Shown here piece after piece: positions 17,223-24,485 of a stretch of 48,055 nt of DNA. Each line of letters begins with the position of its first letter. Positions within the stretch are counted from its first letter, which is position 1. The notes below the pieces were generated by a model. It had not been told where the DNA came from and searched no databases. It worked only from the letters and a program-made list of their open reading frames with translations. The position numbers and the translations under genes are program-made. This DNA is from Nitrospinaceae bacterium. Lineage in GTDB: Bacteria > Nitrospinota > Nitrospinia > Nitrospinales > Nitrospinaceae. The stretch is taken from positions 1-48,055 of the forward strand of contig JAJDBJ010000064.1 of assembly GCA_029261395.1 (NCBI GenBank), given 5' to 3'.

Positions 17223-17489
17223 TTACTCCAGTCCGATCATTTTGAGCAGGTCGGTTCGGGTGATCGCCCAATAGGCCCCTAATCCTAAAAAAATTACGGC
17301 ACCGAAGCCTCCGGCCACCAGGAAGATCAGCCGCTTCGGATCTTTCTCGTAGAATTCCTTGATGTCTACCGCAAAACTTTCCGCAAGGTTTTCATCTGCG
17401 TGTTTTTTGAACGTCTTGTCAATGGCATCCCGGCCATAGATGATGCCGAAGATGATTGCAATGATCAGTATTTCGATTGCGCCGATCAT
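17223..17489 (-). CDS. Small two-helix membrane protein
   Basis: 88 residues, starting at an ATG that overlaps the upstream gene's stop (ATGA), so it is translationally coupled to the transglutaminase/TPR/FGE-like gene. A membrane helix (about 3-18, IEILIIAIIFGIIYG) is followed by a charged amphipathic stretch (19-51) and a second helix (54-76, LIFLVAGGFGAVIFLGLGAYWA). The family is not recognised. The coupling implies action with its upstream partner, perhaps as a membrane anchor. A longer frame reaching 17603 only reads into the upstream gene and is not used. Confidence 0.75.
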   Translation of the reverse strand: MIGAIEILIIAIIFGIIYGRDAIDKTFKKHADENLAESFAVDIKEFYEKDPKRLIFLVAGGFGAVIFLGLGAYWAITRTDLLKMIGLE

Positions 17490-20005
17490 GGGTTGAGTCC
17501 TGAGCCTTCCTGAACCTTGTGTTCCAGTCGTGTCGGAATGAATAAATGTTCCCGGGAGGTCAGTCGCTTCGGGGCGGTGCCTTCCGGCCCGTCCTGAGCG
17601 CATCGGAACCCGTAATCATCCAGCGCCGTATTCGAGTGGCTGTTGTTCCGGAAAGAGGCGTAAATGAAGGACCTGAGGTCTCTCCACGATCCGCCTTTGA
17701 GGACTTTAAACTCCCCCCCGATCTGTCCCTTTGGATTTAAGTTGTGATTTTCTTCCTTATAATACTCTCGATCATACCAGTCGTCCACCCATTCTTTGAC
17801 GTTGCCCAGCATGTGAAACAACCCGAAAGAGCTTTTTCCTTCTGGCATGGAATCGACCGGGACCATGACACGGTGGGCGATTTCCTCGGTCCATTTTTGT
17901 CGATATCGGGCTTTTTGAGGGCTGATCGGGTCGTTGCCCCACGGGAAGAAGTTGCCTTCGGTTCCGCGCGCCGCTTTTTCCCACTCCGCTTCGGTGGGCA
18001 GGCGTTTGTTCTTCCATTTGCAGAAAGCCGCCGCCCCGAACCAGGACACATTGTTGATGGGATAGGATTCCAAACCCTTGCGCGGCCTGAAATCCTTTTC
18101 CAAAACCAGCATGCCGAATTTGTTGTCCTTGTAGAATTGCTTGTAGGTTTTGACATCGTTTAAAAACGCGGCAAACTCCGCCGCTGTCACTTCAAATTTA
18201 TCAATGTAATAGGCATCCAGATAGACCTTGTGCTCGGGAGCTTCGTCATCGCCGTGCCCGTTGGCCCCCATGATGAAATATCCCTTTGGAATCAGGATCA
18301 TGCCTTCCGGTGCCGAAAGCGCGACCTTGTTCAGTAAGCCCCGTGCTTTGTCGGCGAAAGGACCTTTGGGGCTTTGTGACAAGTAACGATTGAGCCATTT
18401 GCGAGCCTTATCCTTCTGGTCACCCTGCAATAAAATCCATCCGCCGAAGTAGTTCATTTCTGGAATGCCGGGATAATTTTTGAAGGCGCCGTTCAAATCT
18501 TCAATCATCGCATCGACAGCTTTCGGGTCATCGGCATCGAGCGCTTTCTGGTACCACTTCTCGGCGTCATCGAATTGTTTTGAGAGCACGCTATAAAATC
18601 CAAGATTCATATGACCCAGAGTGGTGAGCCGGTTTGCTTGTGAGTTGGCTTGAAGACCCTGGCGGGTGACTTCGATAGCCTTGGCGACGTTTCCCGTTTG
18701 GTAATGGACCCATCCCAGCTGAATATAATTTTCAGTGGATTGTGGAGCGCGCTCAATGACGAACTCGTATTGAACGATCGCTTTTTGGTACTCCTTCTGC
18801 CGGTAATACGCGTCCGCCATGCGTTGATTGATCGCAATAGCCTGCGGGAAGCGGCTTTGCAAGTCCTCGAAGTATTTCAAGGCCATTTCCGCCTGACCCA
18901 TTTCCAGAAGGACGGTGCCGATATTCAATTCAGTGTTGAGCTGTCCCGGTTGCAGGCGTTTCATGATTTTCAAATGGAGCAAGGCACCCGCAAATTTTTT
19001 CTGTTGCAGGTAAATGCGTGTCAGCATTTCATGGGCCAGATGATATTGGGGATTGATCTGCGCCGCCTGCAGGAATGTCCCTTTGGCTTTTTCCAGGGCG
19101 CCTGTTTCCATATAAGCCAGTCCCAGGTTGAACAAGGTTGAGAAATTTCCAGGGTCGGCTTTCAACGCCCGCTCGTAGGCGTGGATGGATTTGTCGTGCT
19201 GTTTTAATTCCGAGTAGATGTTGCCGAGGTTGTTGAGCGCATCGATGGACTGCGGATTGATAGTGGCCGATTGCTCCAGATAAAAAATAGCGATCTTGGG
19301 TTTGGCGGCGCGGTACATGACCAGCCCGACATTGGAGAAGTAAGCGCCCAGCGTTTGTTTCTTGCCCAGGTTACTCATGAAATATTTGGAACCCTGGTCC
19401 ACTCCAAACCGTTGTTCATAAAACGAATCGGGAAATGCGGTGCCGCCTTCGGTCGCCTCAATGTTCACCCTGTACTCCGGCGATTCGTAGCGCACGAAAA
19501 AATGATTCGGCAGAGGGACACCGAACAACGGCAGGTTCAACCGCTCGCCGAGAATGAGATACAGCAGGGACAGGTTCATGCAGTAGCCGCGTCGGGTCTG
19601 TAACAGCCCATGCAGAAATAATTCCGCAGGATTGACCGGCATGCCCGCCGGGTCGAGTGCTTCGGTGTAACGGTATCGCCCCTCCTCATGAATGACCTTG
19701 CGCAAAATTTCTACGGTTTGCGCTGGCGAAGGATTGCCCTGGAGTTGGTTGCGGGCCGACTCGGTCAACCGATCCAATATTTTCTTGAGGGGGGCTGTTT
19801 CCAGCCGGGGATCCCAATGGCGCGAGATCAAAAGGAGCGTTTCGGTCAGGTCGATCTTGTTTTCGGGCAAAGCCAGAGTGGCGACCAGCTCTTCGGTAAT
19901 CGAGACTTGCCGGGGTGCGGCCTGGGAGGGCAGGGCACCCGCCAGTAAAAGGCAGAAGGCCATAATCGCGATAAATTTGGCAGTGCGCAGTGTTCGAAAA
20001 ATCAT
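17486..20005 (-). CDS. Exported transglutaminase-like/TPR/FGE-like triple-domain protein
   Basis: 839 residues from ATG 20005, chosen because it gives a clean signal peptide ending PSQAA; an ATG at 20053 adds 16 residues in front. Domain one (about 35-210) is a SirB1/transglutaminase-like fold with RRGYCMNLSLLYL (C142), PNHFFVRY (H168) and an acidic residue at 183, consistent with a Cys-His-Asp/Glu triad. Next come about nine TPR units (about 235-560). The last domain (about 570-810) is of the formylglycine-generating/SUMF1 family (PEGMILIPKGYFIMG, then RLPTEAEWEKAARG and GGSWRD). It lacks the paired catalytic cysteines of true FGE, so it is probably a binding or other-function relative. A sulfatase is not visible nearby. 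Confidence 0.85.
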   Translation of the reverse strand: MIFRTLRTAKFIAIMAFCLLLAGALPSQAAPRQVSITEELVATLALPENKIDLTETLLLISRHWDPRLETAPLKKILDRLTESARNQLQGNPSPAQTVEILRKVIHEEGRYRYTEALDPAGMPVNPAELFLHGLLQTRRGYCMNLSLLYLILGERLNLPLFGVPLPNHFFVRYESPEYRVNIEATEGGTAFPDSFYEQRFGVDQGSKYFMSNLGKKQTLGAYFSNVGLVMYRAAKPKIAIFYLEQSATINPQSIDALNNLGNIYSELKQHDKSIHAYERALKADPGNFSTLFNLGLAYMETGALEKAKGTFLQAAQINPQYHLAHEMLTRIYLQQKKFAGALLHLKIMKRLQPGQLNTELNIGTVLLEMGQAEMALKYFEDLQSRFPQAIAINQRMADAYYRQKEYQKAIVQYEFVIERAPQSTENYIQLGWVHYQTGNVAKAIEVTRQGLQANSQANRLTTLGHMNLGFYSVLSKQFDDAEKWYQKALDADDPKAVDAMIEDLNGAFKNYPGIPEMNYFGGWILLQGDQKDKARKWLNRYLSQSPKGPFADKARGLLNKVALSAPEGMILIPKGYFIMGANGHGDDEAPEHKVYLDAYYIDKFEVTAAEFAAFLNDVKTYKQFYKDNKFGMLVLEKDFRPRKGLESYPINNVSWFGAAAFCKWKNKRLPTEAEWEKAARGTEGNFFPWGNDPISPQKARYRQKWTEEIAHRVMVPVDSMPEGKSSFGLFHMLGNVKEWVDDWYDREYYKEENHNLNPKGQIGGEFKVLKGGSWRDLRSFIYASFRNNSHSNTALDDYGFRCAQDGPEGTAPKRLTSREHLFIPTRLEHKVQEGSGLNP

Positions 20006-20094
20006 TGAAAACTCGTTGGTTATGCGGTTTGAGACGGCATGGATTGAAATCATTATATCAGAATGAGATTGGCAAACCTACGGTAGGAATCGGA

Positions 20095-22242
20095 TCATTC
20101 TTTGCGGACGATCCAGCCCTCCCAGAACATCATGACCGCCAGCAGGAGAAATAAAAGAGTGGTCAGGGGTACGCCGGCGCCGACTGAAGCCGCGTTCAGT
20201 GACTGATCGGCCGGAGAGTAGTCCACCTGAGCTCCGGGAAAATATTGTGACAATTCTTTTTCAGGGACTTTGCCGGGGACGGATTCCGCCGGATCGAAAT
20301 TAACGGTAAAACTTCCCAATCGTTTGGCATCAGCGGGCAGTTGTTTGGGGGGCAGAGAATCCATCGGCTCGGAAACGGACGGTGCTGACCAGTGATACAA
20401 CTCATATACGCCCGGGCGGTGAGTGTCTTCAAACACCGGCGGCGACTGAGGGTTTTTCCGGGCAATGGAAATTATGCCGCCGGGTGCGACCACCAACGGC
20501 GCTTGCTCCATCTCCTCAAACACCAACGGCGTGCCCACGGTGACGTCGTGGCGGGAAATGTTTTCGAGGCCTTGTGCGGCGTATTTCACCCAGCGTTGAA
20601 TCCAGGGGAGAAAAGTCGGATGAATGGGGAAATTGTTCCAGTCCCGATCGAGAGAAGAAACAAACAGGATAACCTTGCCTTCTCCAAAGTTCGATTCGAT
20701 CACTGCGGGGAACCGATTGGTGAAGTGCATCGGCGTCTCAAACTCCCGTTCGCGTCGGGGTTCGACACTGTAGAGTGTCTGGAAAGGAATACGTGCCATC
20801 TCCTTGAGCATACTTCCGGTAAATACCTTCAAAGCCGGATGGTCACTGGGTTGTGCCTTGAGGTGGAAGGGCTTGTCTTTGGTTCTCACCTGATTGATGG
20901 ATTTCAAAGTGACCGGCAGAAGCAGGCCCAATCTCTCATTGTAGTATTTCGGATCGACCTGATCTCCCAGACCGATGAGCAGAGCGCCGCCCCGCAGTAC
21001 AAATTTTTCCAGCTCCTGTTCGAGACCGATCGCCAGGTCCCGCACGTTGCACAAAATAATCACGGAGTATTGTTTTAAATCCCGCTCTGAAAACTCCGAG
21101 AGCGTGGACACGGTCGGTTCGATATCGGCCATGGGGGAAGAAAACGGATTGAGTGCCTTTTCGACATAAAACGAGTCGTGCTGGTGCGCCACACCGCGCG
21201 GGTCACCGTCCACCACCAGTGCTTTGATTTTGCGGTCGGGTTGATAGACGAACAGCCGCCGATTGTCCGCCGCTAACGCGTCTTCCTGGATTTCAACGTG
21301 ACCTGTAACCGGGTCGTTATTCAATAAGGGAAACGAAAACTCATGAGTCGCCTTACCCTTGGCGGGCAGATCAATCATGCTTTCGCTCTGTCGCTTGCCG
21401 TTGATGACCAGGGTGACCGGAAGTTGCTTGATGGCCCGGTTCGGTAGCAGGTTGGCAATTGTAGCCTGTACCCGAATAACACGGCGGTTGGTGAGGAATT
21501 CCTGATTCAGTTTGACCTTCTCCACCAGCGCCCGGTTGAGTCCTTTTTGGGATGCTGAAAAATCGATGATTTTGATCTGGGTGGATGAATCCTCCGCAAG
21601 CGCAGTCGGAAATTCATCCCGGTCCCAACCGTTTTGATCCATATCGGTCAGGATAAAAATCCGTTTGTTTTCCTGCGGTGCGCTACTCAATAGATCAGCC
21701 GCCACAGTCACGGCTTTGCCAATGCGGGTGATGCGATGGGAAGGTTGCGCCGCCTTCAACCATTTCAGGGTTTGGCCGGGGTCTTCCGTCCAGTCCTGCA
21801 CCACGCGGGCGGGGTGGGATGCGAGCACAAGGCTGAAGGAATGGTTACCGGGAAGTTTCTCAATCAGTTCAGTCAACGTCGTCTTGGCCCGGTCGAACAA
21901 CGTTCCCTGGTCGCTTGTCGCGGACATGCTGTAGGAATCATCCAGAACAAACACATGGGCGGAAGGACGTGACGCCAGAATACTTTCAAGTCCACCGGAT
22001 GAAAGATTGGGATTGGCCAGTGCCAGGCACAGAAAACCGATGGCTAGGCAACGCAAGAGCAGAAGGAGAAGTTTGTTGGGTCGGGATTTACGCACCGACC
22101 GTTTCCTCGCCTGTTGCAACAGGTAGACCGCTGAAAATTTCAGCCGGGTCTGCTGGCGACGGGTCAGCAAATGGATCAGGATGGGCAGTGCCAGGCCTAA
22201 CAACCCCAGCAGGTACCACGGAGATGTGAAACTGAAATTCAT
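20095..22242 (-). CDS. BatA-like membrane protein with vWA and glutamine-amidotransferase-like region
   Basis: 715 residues. The N-terminus is the BatA type: membrane helices at about 8-26 and 57-77 around an RRQQTRLKFSAVYLL segment. A von Willebrand A domain follows with a MIDAS motif D101-x-S103-x-S105. The middle to C-terminal part (about 335-560) looks like the class I glutamine-amidotransferase-like domain found in such proteins (VDGDPRGVAHQHDSFYVEKAL; ALLIGLGDQV). A final helix (about 690-708) returns to the membrane. The start overlaps the DUF58 stop by 4 bases. Such pairs usually sit with a MoxR ATPase and act in envelope stress or assembly, but MoxR is absent here. Confidence 0.88.
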   Translation of the reverse strand: MNFSFTSPWYLLGLLGLALPILIHLLTRRQQTRLKFSAVYLLQQARKRSVRKSRPNKLLLLLLRCLAIGFLCLALANPNLSSGGLESILASRPSAHVFVLDDSYSMSATSDQGTLFDRAKTTLTELIEKLPGNHSFSLVLASHPARVVQDWTEDPGQTLKWLKAAQPSHRITRIGKAVTVAADLLSSAPQENKRIFILTDMDQNGWDRDEFPTALAEDSSTQIKIIDFSASQKGLNRALVEKVKLNQEFLTNRRVIRVQATIANLLPNRAIKQLPVTLVINGKRQSESMIDLPAKGKATHEFSFPLLNNDPVTGHVEIQEDALAADNRRLFVYQPDRKIKALVVDGDPRGVAHQHDSFYVEKALNPFSSPMADIEPTVSTLSEFSERDLKQYSVIILCNVRDLAIGLEQELEKFVLRGGALLIGLGDQVDPKYYNERLGLLLPVTLKSINQVRTKDKPFHLKAQPSDHPALKVFTGSMLKEMARIPFQTLYSVEPRREREFETPMHFTNRFPAVIESNFGEGKVILFVSSLDRDWNNFPIHPTFLPWIQRWVKYAAQGLENISRHDVTVGTPLVFEEMEQAPLVVAPGGIISIARKNPQSPPVFEDTHRPGVYELYHWSAPSVSEPMDSLPPKQLPADAKRLGSFTVNFDPAESVPGKVPEKELSQYFPGAQVDYSPADQSLNAASVGAGVPLTTLLFLLLAVMMFWEGWIVRKE

Positions 22243-23177
22243 ATCTTACGTAAACTTTTTCGGCGGAGAAGGTAATACCGTAACGCCTGTTCCAGCGGCG
22301 TGGAGGTTTCCAGAAATAGATAATCGATACCCAGAGTCGGGCAATTTTTCGTGTAGAACTCAATCTGTTCCTGAATGGCTTGCTGATATTGTTGGCGCAC
22401 ATCGAACGGGTCCAGTCCCAGAGGCGGGTCGTCTTCCAGTGATTCAAAAACAAGGTCGCCTTCAAAGGGCAGAGTGACTTCGTCGGGGTGGAGGACGTGA
22501 AACAGGATGACCTCCAGCCCACGGGACTTGAGCATTTTGAGTGTTTTAAATACGTCGTCTTCCCGCGTTAACAGGTCGGAGACCAAAATCAACATGCCGC
22601 GGCCCGGCAGGCGTTCGATCAAATTACCCACCACTTCTTCTATCCGGGTGACTCCCTTGAACTCCATATCCTGCAATCCATGCAAAATATTCTGGAAATG
22701 CGAGGGTTTGGACCGGGGAGGAAGATGCGACACCACTGCATCGTTGAACAGGGTCAGTCCCACAGCGTCAAATTGCTTCAGGAGCAGATACCCCATGGCC
22801 GCAACCAGCGTGCGGGCGTAATCCCGTTTGTCCATGCCGGGGGACTTGGAGTCGGGTGAGCGGTAGGCCATGGACCCGCTGGCGTCGAGCAGAAGGGTGC
22901 ATTTCAAATTGGTGGATTGTTCGAACTGCTTGACGTGATATTTGTCCGTTTTGCCCACCACTTTCCAGTCGATATGACGGATATCGTCACCCGGCGAGTA
23001 GTCCTTGTATTCTGCAAATTCAACGCTGGAACCCTTGTGAGGACTTCGGTGGTGACCCGACAACAGGCCCTCGACCAATTGGATGGCCCGAATGCTGAGG
23101 GAGGAAACTTCCGATAGAGTTTCCGGTCCGTAGTTGAATTGTGTGCTTTCTGCCATTGGCATTCTCCGGTCGATCAT
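22239..23177 (-). CDS. DUF58 protein with vWA-like MIDAS
   Basis: 312 residues. The DUF58 signature is visible as EYKDYSPGDDIRHIDWK (56-72), and a MIDAS-like DASGS lies at 98-102. ATG 23177 has GGAGG about 4 bases upstream; ATGs at residues 6 and 8 are alternatives. DUF58 proteins are typical partners of MoxR AAA+ ATPases and vWA membrane proteins; the vWA partner is the next gene with a 4-base overlap. It is the first gene of this minus-strand operon, and the 272 bases upstream hold no gene. The cellular role is unproven for most of the family. Confidence 0.92.
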   Translation of the reverse strand: MIDRRMPMAESTQFNYGPETLSEVSSLSIRAIQLVEGLLSGHHRSPHKGSSVEFAEYKDYSPGDDIRHIDWKVVGKTDKYHVKQFEQSTNLKCTLLLDASGSMAYRSPDSKSPGMDKRDYARTLVAAMGYLLLKQFDAVGLTLFNDAVVSHLPPRSKPSHFQNILHGLQDMEFKGVTRIEEVVGNLIERLPGRGMLILVSDLLTREDDVFKTLKMLKSRGLEVILFHVLHPDEVTLPFEGDLVFESLEDDPPLGLDPFDVRQQYQQAIQEQIEFYTKNCPTLGIDYLFLETSTPLEQALRYYLLRRKSLRKI

Positions 23178-23449
23178 TCGACCTCCGAAACATTATGTTG
23201 TTTTCCGGGCCGGGTATCAAGCGAGGAGTGAATCTGAGGACCGGTGTCGGAAAGGGCCGGTGTATGCAAATAGACTGAGATCAGGGACGATAGACTTTTC
23301 GTCAGACCTGGTCAAGTTTATGGGTTCTATAACTATTTGATTTTATTGGTTAAATTAATCAAGAGTATCCCTGTATTTATTTTTCGTGTTACACTTAAAC
23401 CACTCCATAAGGGGTATTTTTTTAATATTGAAAGAAATAGGGATTGTGT

Positions 23450-24056: not shown

Positions 24057-24485
24057 TTGTTTACTCAATGGAATAAGGGAGCCGTACTTGCAATGAGTTT
24101 AGTGTTGGCTTTTATATTTACAGTAACTAGTAGTGTATTTTATGAGCCGACCCCGGCGTGGGCTGGGGATCGCGATACTGCCAGTGAAACTGCCGAGGAG
24201 TCCCAAGCGGTCAAAGGCAAGATAGCGGGTGCGGCTGATGGCGTGGGCGGATTTTTCAGCGGTATTATGAATTGGATCAAAAGCATCACCGACGCTGTCA
24301 ATAACATGTGGGGCATGGAAAATGGCACGGGTGTTGCCAAAGTAGTGAACGGAATTTTTTACCTGATTCTCATCGGCGGCGTTTTATTTGGCGGTAAAAT
24401 GATCTTCAATATATTTACCGATGCCGTTAAGGGAGAGAACAGCGTAGACGACAGGTACAAGAAACCGTCGTTCCGTAAAAAGTAG
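24057..24485 (+). CDS. Small exported membrane protein of unknown function
   Basis: 142 residues from a TTG start, chosen because a perfect AGGAGG (24044-24049) sits 7 bases upstream. A signal peptide or first helix (about 10-36, ending TPAWA) is followed by a polar Ala/Gly/Ser stretch. Next is an amphipathic stretch (FFSGIMNWIKSITDAVNNMW), then a Gly-rich second helix (about 100-122, GIFYLILIGGVLFGGKMIF) and a basic C-terminus KKPSFRKK. The family is not recognised. The layout resembles small pore- or spacer-forming membrane proteins only in outline. It lies downstream of the LRR gene. Confidence 0.75.
   Translation: MFTQWNKGAVLAMSLVLAFIFTVTSSVFYEPTPAWAGDRDTASETAEESQAVKGKIAGAADGVGGFFSGIMNWIKSITDAVNNMWGMENGTGVAKVVNGIFYLILIGGVLFGGKMIFNIFTDAVKGENSVDDRYKKPSFRKK

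Follow-up and report, generated by a model that had tools for sequence, protein, structure and literature searches.

A DUF58-BatA locus of a Nitrospinaceae bacterium as the probable half of a split MoxR operon, adjoined by an order-restricted pair of genes for a TGase-TPR-FGE-like protein and a two-helix protein

Among described systems, the Bat operon (Bacteroides aerotolerance) has its MoxR, DUF58, and BatA-N vWA families in common with the system analyzed here, but it also encodes two short vWA proteins, BatC, BatD, and BatE. The present locus lacks BatD, the BatC/BatE TPR genes, and a short BatA-BatB pair, and its sole vWA protein is 715 residues long. The cmdA-D genes of Rhizobium leguminosarum (RL3499-RL3502) likewise form a MoxR-class operon, a likeness drawn from its description rather than from sequence, and extracts of two studies report defects of cell morphology and envelope integrity in its mutants (PMC3893208, PMC5700661), which fits the envelope role that a first-pass annotation had suggested for the locus. 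An extract of a Leptospira biflexa study, by contrast, reports unchanged growth and morphology after deletion of all bat genes (PMC3557215), which counts against an envelope-remodeling explanation. For MoxR-vWA ternary conflict systems, in which a variable third component is linked to a MoxR-vWA pair, the extract at hand mentions rare TGase-type peptidase and FGE-type effector domains and, within its span, makes no mention of DUF58 (PMC7159879). PADLOC returned only weak TPR matches for the TGase-containing protein of the locus and a weak DolB match for the MoxR of contig C34 discussed below; with no informative match, assignment to a defence system was dropped. Among the matches listed in a title and abstract search of the open-access literature, no paper dealt with the operon split or with the TGase-containing protein.

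The window, that is, the whole 48,055-nucleotide stretch of DNA that was analyzed, carries four consecutive genes on the minus strand where they had first been annotated. They encode a DUF58 protein, a BatA-type vWA protein, a TGase-TPR-FGE-like protein (TG), and an 88-residue protein:

22239..23177, minus strand: DUF58 protein, 312 residues (PF01882, 4.7e-42)
22239..22242, minus strand: four-base start/stop overlap of the DUF58 and BatA genes, ATGA (letters read directly)
20095..22242, minus strand: BatA-type vWA membrane protein, 715 residues (PF07584, 9.6e-19; VWA_2, 3.3e-17; two_anch TIGR02226, 3.4e-21)
17486..20053, minus strand: TG, 855 residues (Transglut_core2, 6.1e-17; TPRs; FGE-sulfatase, 3.5e-54)
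19268..19912, minus strand: Transglut_core2 domain of TG, papain-like, residues 48-262 (predicted menin-like fold)
18323..19348, minus strand: TPR superhelix of TG, residues about 236-577 (Pfam TPR families and model)
17597..18307, minus strand: FGE-sulfatase-like domain of TG, residues 583-819 (PF03781, 3.5e-54)
17486..17489, minus strand: four-base start/stop overlap of the TG and small-protein genes, ATGA (letters read directly)
17223..17489, minus strand: two-hydrophobic-helix protein, 88 residues (ATGA-coupled to TG)
23192..23220, minus strand: possible promoter 5' of DUF58, weak (10/12 consensus positions)

The first-pass description of overlapping DUF58 and BatA-like genes, followed by a large exported triple-domain protein and a coupled two-helix protein, is borne out by both ATGA overlaps, by the three domain profiles of TG and its hydrophobic N terminus, which is consistent with export, and by the two hydrophobic stretches of its small neighbor. 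The vWA stop and the TG start are separated by 41 bases, and the small-protein gene is taken as 17489-17223, the longer frame 17603-17223 being a mechanical ORF only. A divergent LRR gene lies upstream of DUF58, at 23444. Promoter-like sites in the region (8, versus 5.2 with a standard deviation of 2.3 in shuffles) and terminator-like sites showed no clear excess over shuffled sequence. In 14 aligned sequences, DUF58 residues D98, S100, and S102 (DxSxS), T177, and D201 are invariant and make up a vWA-type MIDAS motif; no hydrophobic segment was found in the window DUF58. BatA residues D101, S103, S105, and D200 are invariant in 14 sequences as well, and hydrophobicity peaks near residues 9, 58, and 687 of the protein.

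MoxR had been described as absent. No moxR adjoins the four window genes, but a profile search of the same genome returned three strong MoxR matches (E <= 1e-62), along with three DUF58 and three BatA-N matches; two weaker AAA_3 matches, one of them over the cut-off, were left out of the MoxR count. One of the three moxR genes belongs to a canonical Bat operon, one lies beside another DUF58 gene, and one is an orphan on contig C34, where it follows genes for DUF4175 and Peptidase_MA/TPR proteins. The canonical Bat operon, with its own MoxR (contig C72) and BatD, BatC/BatE-like genes and a short BatA-BatB pair (contig C15), was taken as one operon from the gene content of the two pieces. The order DUF4175-Peptidase_MA/TPR-MoxR recurs in 31 of 31 fetched relatives within the order of Nitrospina relatives (37 carry the gene), and DUF58 was found at none of these 31 MoxR loci, in 3 of which the contig ends inside MoxR; a MoxR gene adjoining DUF58 in these relatives is thereby ruled out. 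A conserved partner gene after the C34-type MoxR was ruled out as well, the next gene being mostly exonuclease-like on the opposite strand, with FliD-like genes further on (assigned by eye).

The partner preferences of the orphan MoxR were read from 34 loci outside the order, chosen by similarity to the window DUF58. All 34 score higher with the window DUF58 than with that of C72, as expected of loci selected by the window DUF58. MoxR is present at 31 of them, in each case matching the orphan C34 MoxR best, rather than those of C72 or C20; it lies directly upstream of DUF58 on the same strand at 24, and a BatA relative lies downstream at 27. In a MoxR tree, the orphan, 8 further MoxR proteins of the order, and 26 DUF58-linked outside MoxR proteins are separated from those of C72 and C20 by a branch with 97/99 support, in a tree whose long branches meet near the root. 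As a control, in class genomes outside the order, DUF58 was of the C72 type at 6 of 6 loci and MoxR of the C72 type at all 5 that carry MoxR. By sequence, the orphan thus falls into the subfamily found alongside DUF58 of the window type at other loci, and the search for an unlinked MoxR that the first-pass annotation had proposed yielded a matching candidate. At three outside loci (L170, L175, and L180), genes for DUF4175, Peptidase_MA, MoxR, DUF58, and BatA are contiguous; because such contiguity characterizes only part of the outside loci, it is not taken here as a requirement for operons of this kind. These operons share five protein families, including the MoxR and DUF58 subfamilies, with the present genome; there they form one operon without TG or the small protein, whereas here the genes occupy two unlinked loci and TG and the small protein are present.

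The best explanation as a whole, to which we assign a probability of roughly 70%, is a split MoxR operon with an order-specific addition of TG and the small protein, acting on the envelope as proposed here. On this explanation, the window locus is the DUF58-BatA half of an operon of the DUF4175-Peptidase_MA-MoxR-DUF58-BatA kind, a kind found in several phyla, which in the order of Nitrospina relatives is split into a DUF4175-Peptidase_MA/TPR-MoxR part (on C34) and an unlinked DUF58-BatA part (in the window). By analogy with other MoxR/vWA pairs, the C34 MoxR may act as a hexamer, together with DUF58 in the cytoplasm and the vWA protein anchored in the membrane, in the remodeling or maturation of a protein complex of the envelope. 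Next to DUF58-BatA, the order has added a two-gene module, consisting of the exported-looking TG and its coupled two-helix membrane protein. TG may act in the periplasm, its TPR and FGE-like domains binding a client protein or glycan that its putative Cys-His-acid site would cut or transamidate, and the small protein may tether it at the inner membrane, next to the vWA protein. Gene content, the split, the MoxR subfamily match, conservation across the order, the conserved triad residues, and the predicted fold are what the sequences show, whereas the partnership in the cell, the client, catalysis, and tethering are inferences.

Distribution across genomes is consistent with this explanation. 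TG was found in 56 of 64 genomes of the order but in none of 13 genomes elsewhere in the class; in these 13, its TGase domain had no match at E <= 1e-10, and full-length copies of window-type BatA, Peptidase_MA, and TG were absent. Across 24 genomes from other groups (contributing 24 of the 34 outside loci), matches were confined to the FGE-like part of TG. Among the genomes examined, TG is therefore restricted to the order. Counting against the explanation, the occurrence of both halves in nearly all genomes of the order and in none of the 13 others may reflect a single event; in addition, Peptidase_MA had no match in G031 (single contig, 86% complete), and G032 (94% complete) lacks both BatA and the TGase domain of TG. 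The four-gene order is kept in much of the order, as the first-pass annotation had supposed; in 23 of 41 genomes (G003 among them), TG comes after BatA on the same strand at a distance of no more than 400 bp. The genome does encode another Bat operon that has a MoxR of its own, a finding which that annotation had paired with loss of the gene order as evidence against it, but the gene order is conserved.

It is nonetheless possible, though we lean against it, that TG and the small protein form an independent envelope module that merely lies beside DUF58-BatA, so that the four genes are not one functional system. Wherever both are visible on one locus, DUF58 and BatA are same-strand neighbors (38 of 38 genomes), as are TG and the small protein (36 of 36; own genome included in each), neither pair ever being found separated; the arrangement is therefore not due to chance. 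Between the pairs, linkage is loose: of 41 genomes, 7 have an opposite-strand response-regulator gene separating BatA from TG, 5 have the two apart, and 2 carry them about 8 kb from each other on opposite strands (14 of 37 informative genomes). The four genes thus fall into two modules of two genes each, and coupling of TG to DUF58-BatA is plausible but looser than had been assumed. Neither TG nor the small protein occurs at any of the 34 outside loci. Set against this separation are the frequent spacing of less than 100 bp where BatA and TG are adjacent, their retention on a single contig, some 20 kb apart at most, in G026 and G033, and the nearly equal distribution of TG and window-type BatA inside and outside the order. 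Conserved neighborhood within a single order is weak evidence in any case, because the opposite-strand FlavRed and LRR genes are conserved neighbors too.

In TG itself, hydrophobicity peaks near the N terminus, at residue 27, as would fit a signal peptide and export. Its TGase domain belongs to Transglut_core2 (PF13369; 62 bits versus a cut-off of 23.5), the SirB1-type family, and all 22 of the 22 aligned TG sequences have Cys158, His184, and an acidic residue at 199. A conventional Transglut_core2 protein is encoded on contig C4 of the same genome; TG differs in looking exported and in being fused to TPR and FGE-like domains. The family is described as being of unknown function in an extract of PMC10318531. 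A PDB sequence search with the TGase domain returned only designed proteins (E 0.015 or worse), and the menin profile (PF05053) was not among the Pfam families matched by TG at E <= 0.001. In a structure search with full-length TG, TPR proteins predominated (up to Z 23), with menin also among the matches, and a separate TGase-domain model was therefore made. Modeled at pLDDT 95.2, residues 48-262 are predicted to be closest to menin (PDB 3U84 and others) among the solved folds listed, with Z 13.0-15.9 versus 8.4 for the next fold and rmsd 2.9-3.4 over 192-199 of 215 residues, the Foldseek E value being only 0.0037. The TPR region is mostly modeled at pLDDT > 90 and the FGE-like part poorly. 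The best matches of the FGE-like domain include formylglycine-generating enzyme and PorK/GldK (GldK 123.6, far below a cut-off of 350), with the FGE-sulfatase domain in common. In an alignment with human FGE, the two active-site cysteines of the human enzyme, in its SYC/ryrC stretch, have no counterpart in the window TG, and in all 22 TG sequences this stretch contains no cysteine besides that of GFRC; FGE activity was rejected because this pair is missing from the sequence.

TG is rather unlikely to be a dead enzyme that serves as a periplasmic scaffold and binds peptides in the manner of human menin. Menin is its closest solved fold and is described, in an extract of PMC10318531, as a scaffold, probably without activity in humans, and the FGE-like domain of TG lacks catalytic cysteines; however, TG keeps its Cys-His-acid residues in every aligned sequence, where the same extract gives Ser in place of Cys in menin. 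TG further differs from menin in its N-terminal hydrophobic segment, long TPR array, and FGE-like domain. The TGase site of TG, read from conserved residues, is a putative one. A fuller proposal, which we hold to be unlikely as a whole, makes TG an active periplasmic enzyme with a menin-like fold that has joined an ancestral MoxR/vWA chaperone throughout the order, Nitrospina included; the ATPase in the cytoplasm would then power a vWA protein in the membrane that presents envelope clients to the exported TGase-TPR-lectin-type enzyme, which a dedicated two-helix subunit would tether. TG is in any case a conserved, exported-looking protein of Nitrospina relatives that, on the predicted fold, keeps an active-site cysteine lost in menin, and the function of a Transglut_core2-TPR protein is therefore directly testable.

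That the canonical Bat MoxR of C72 serves the window DUF58-BatA pair, leaving the C34 MoxR to DUF4175 and Peptidase_MA only, is very improbable: the two MoxR genes do coexist in one cell, but DUF58 and MoxR types match at every locus with both (31/31 window-type, 5/5 C72-type), which suggests a subfamily-based rule for MoxR-DUF58 pairing. Least credible is the first-pass reading of a MoxR-less variant with TG in place of the Bat TPR components, for although the locus lacks moxR and TG has TPRs, a cognate-type MoxR is present, unlinked, in the order, and the system's own TPR protein (Peptidase_MA/TPR, encoded beside the orphan MoxR) and the BatC/BatD/BatE-like genes of the Bat operon are kept. 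A MoxR/DUF58/vWA operon can thus sit split over two loci, and loci that appear MoxR-less should therefore be read against the whole genome.

The 88-residue protein has no Pfam match at E <= 0.001. Its N terminus resembles TatA by eye, an identity that was dropped because PF02416 matched only 1 of 18 members (E 2.2). It is 50-76% identical across 17 relatives, and its hydrophobic stretches lie near residues 1-19 and 54-72.

The window, contig C64 of a 2.94-Mb genome (84 contigs, 97.3% complete), carries four consecutive genes. Two of them, DUF58 and BatA, are read as one half of a known kind of operon that has been divided between two loci, and beside them lies the gene for an exported-looking protein of unusual composition that is, in the genomes compared, restricted to the order of Nitrospina relatives. 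The four genes all lie on the minus strand with no adjoining moxR, as the first-pass annotation had observed locally:

22239-23177, minus strand: DUF58 gene
20095-22242, minus strand: BatA-type vWA protein gene
17486-20053, minus strand: gene for the 855-aa TGase-TPR-FGE-like protein (TG)
17223-17489, minus strand: gene for the 88-aa two-helix protein

ATGA overlaps join the first gene to the second and the third to the fourth, and the set is bordered on its upstream side by a divergent LRR gene and on its downstream side by a convergent gene of flavin-reductase-like type.

A PF07726 search of the genome identified three MoxR genes with strong scores (E between 3e-67 and 1e-62) and two weak AAA_3 matches. 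On contig C72, MoxR is followed by DUF58, a 158-aa protein and the start of a BatD-like protein at the contig end, while contig C15 runs from its own end through the apparent remainder of a BatD-like protein, BatA, BatB, two other genes, a BatC-like TPR protein, BatD (PF13584) and a BatE-like TPR protein; the two pieces read as a single canonical Bat operon broken by assembly. Within this apparent operon a BatD-like gene is seemingly interrupted where the two contigs end (L006 11626-12060, L016 8348-8956). Contig C20 pairs MoxR with a different DUF58 (L008 5126-7080), a third pair of another subfamily whose MoxR has the longest branch in the MoxR tree. The third MoxR, on contig C34, ends a Band_7/slipin-DUF4175-Peptidase_MA/TPR-MoxR series, 188 bases before the contig end. 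It is unlinked to the window, and its subfamily matches that found with window-type DUF58 elsewhere, so the earlier reading of a system lacking MoxR was not borne out. Nor was the proposal that TG replaces the Bat TPR components, given the BatC-like and BatE-like TPR proteins on C15 and Peptidase_MA/TPR on C34.

A scan of the genome-collection contigs for window-type DUF58, in which the named relatives are Nitrospinaceae/Nitrospinota MAGs, kept 80 loci. Of these, 34 were assigned to groups other than the order, with record titles that name Planctomycetota, Acidobacteriota, Myxococcota, Pseudomonadota, Eisenbacteria and further taxa. MoxR was present at 31 of these 34, immediately preceding a co-directional DUF58 at 24, and a BatA relative followed downstream at 27; DUF4175 occurred at 11 and Peptidase_MA at 10, with DUF4175 downstream in several Acidobacteria loci. 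Three loci (L170, L175, L180) hold DUF4175-Peptidase_MA-MoxR-DUF58-BatA contiguously, and L185 holds these genes in a divergent arrangement. Neither TG nor the small protein was found at any of the 34. The C34 MoxR outscored the C72 and C20 MoxR at all 31 loci with MoxR. In a 37-row tree, which leaves out five of the 31 for contig-end cuts or coverage-filter failures, it grouped with order MoxR and all 26 DUF58-linked outside MoxR, separated from the C72 and C20 MoxR by a 97/99 branch; the nearest outside group was Myxococcota/Pseudomonadota (82/87). As a control, 13 genomes of the same class but outside the order were compared: five of them hold DUF58, at six loci that are all C72-type, and MoxR was C72-type at all five loci with MoxR. 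These patterns indicate that MoxR type tracks DUF58 type in the loci examined.

Among 41 order genomes, 37 have the Peptidase_MA gene and 39 a window-type BatA. Thirty-one C34-type loci were fetched from the 37; all have the order DUF4175-Peptidase_MA-MoxR and none a DUF58 (the contig ends inside MoxR in three), the genes past MoxR being oppositely oriented or of other families. G008 and G017, each assembled as a single contig, have about 1 Mb or more between the two halves, and the split therefore looks general across the order.

The four genes fall into two closely linked pairs that are more loosely joined to each other. DUF58-BatA is intact in 38/38 informative order genomes and TG-small protein in 36/36. 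Of the 41 genomes, 23 (G003 included) carry BatA and TG side by side on the same strand, within 400 bp of each other; 7 have a response-regulator gene of opposite orientation between the two, 5 hold them apart, and 2 have them on different strands at a distance of about 8 kb. Contig ends cut 2 and a further 2 are uninformative. Synteny alone proves little, because the opposite-strand LRR and flavin reductase neighbours are conserved too. The intervening regulator is CheB-like by eye (L056 9319-10332, L070 8519-9592, five other loci).

TGase-domain matches with E < 1e-30 occur in 56 of 64 order genomes (weaker listed matches are paralogues) and in 0 of 13 class genomes outside it; G032 is the sole miss among order genomes at least 90% complete with at most 5% contamination. 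Some MAG copies (G004, G039) contain in-frame stops. In a 22-sequence alignment Cys158 and His184 are invariant and residue 199 is Glu in 20 and Asp in 2. The whole-protein model (mean pLDDT 78.7) is good for the TGase and TPR parts and poor for the FGE-like part; the TGase domain modeled separately reached 95.2. Against solved structures, the best 39 rows for this domain were all menin (Z 13.0-15.9, rmsd 2.9-3.4, 192-199 of 215 residues), the next fold scoring Z 8.4. Because Foldseek ranked menin first at E 0.0037, with nothing below 0.001, the probable menin likeness is taken from structural alignment of the predicted model. Passages of PMC10318531 give Transglut_core_2 as of unknown function and human menin as lacking the catalytic cysteine and probably inactive, with the triad kept by some family members. 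The FGE-like domain, whose best solved matches are FGE and then PorK/GldK, lacks the FGE cysteine pair. The order is rich in domains of the FGE-sulfatase-like type: in G000 and 40 relatives TG has 23-33 matches in each genome, most listed matches covering the FGE-like part only. The genome's only other PF13369 match is a conventional Transglut_core2 protein on contig C4 (L218; open frame 293 aa).

MoxR proteins and their vWA partners are described in parts of PMC3893208 and PMC5700661 as chaperone-like factors for protein complexes, with effects of a Rhizobium MoxR operon on envelope integrity and morphology. From this we infer a putative envelope-complex maturation system in which the C34 MoxR would be the motor. 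TG might act in periplasmic binding and in cutting or transamidation; its link to the motor is a proposal from gene neighborhood and shared distribution only.

The LRR gene and DUF58 are separated in many genomes of the order by a gene of 866-872 aa that by eye resembles M1 aminopeptidases (L055 13003-15618, L059 3764-6364), versus a gap of only 267 bases in the window. Between the LRR and spermidine-synthase-like genes, window positions 24057-24485 encode a small exported-looking protein with 51-63% identity to its counterparts in close relatives (L047, L048, L082), versus 82-92% for its neighbors.
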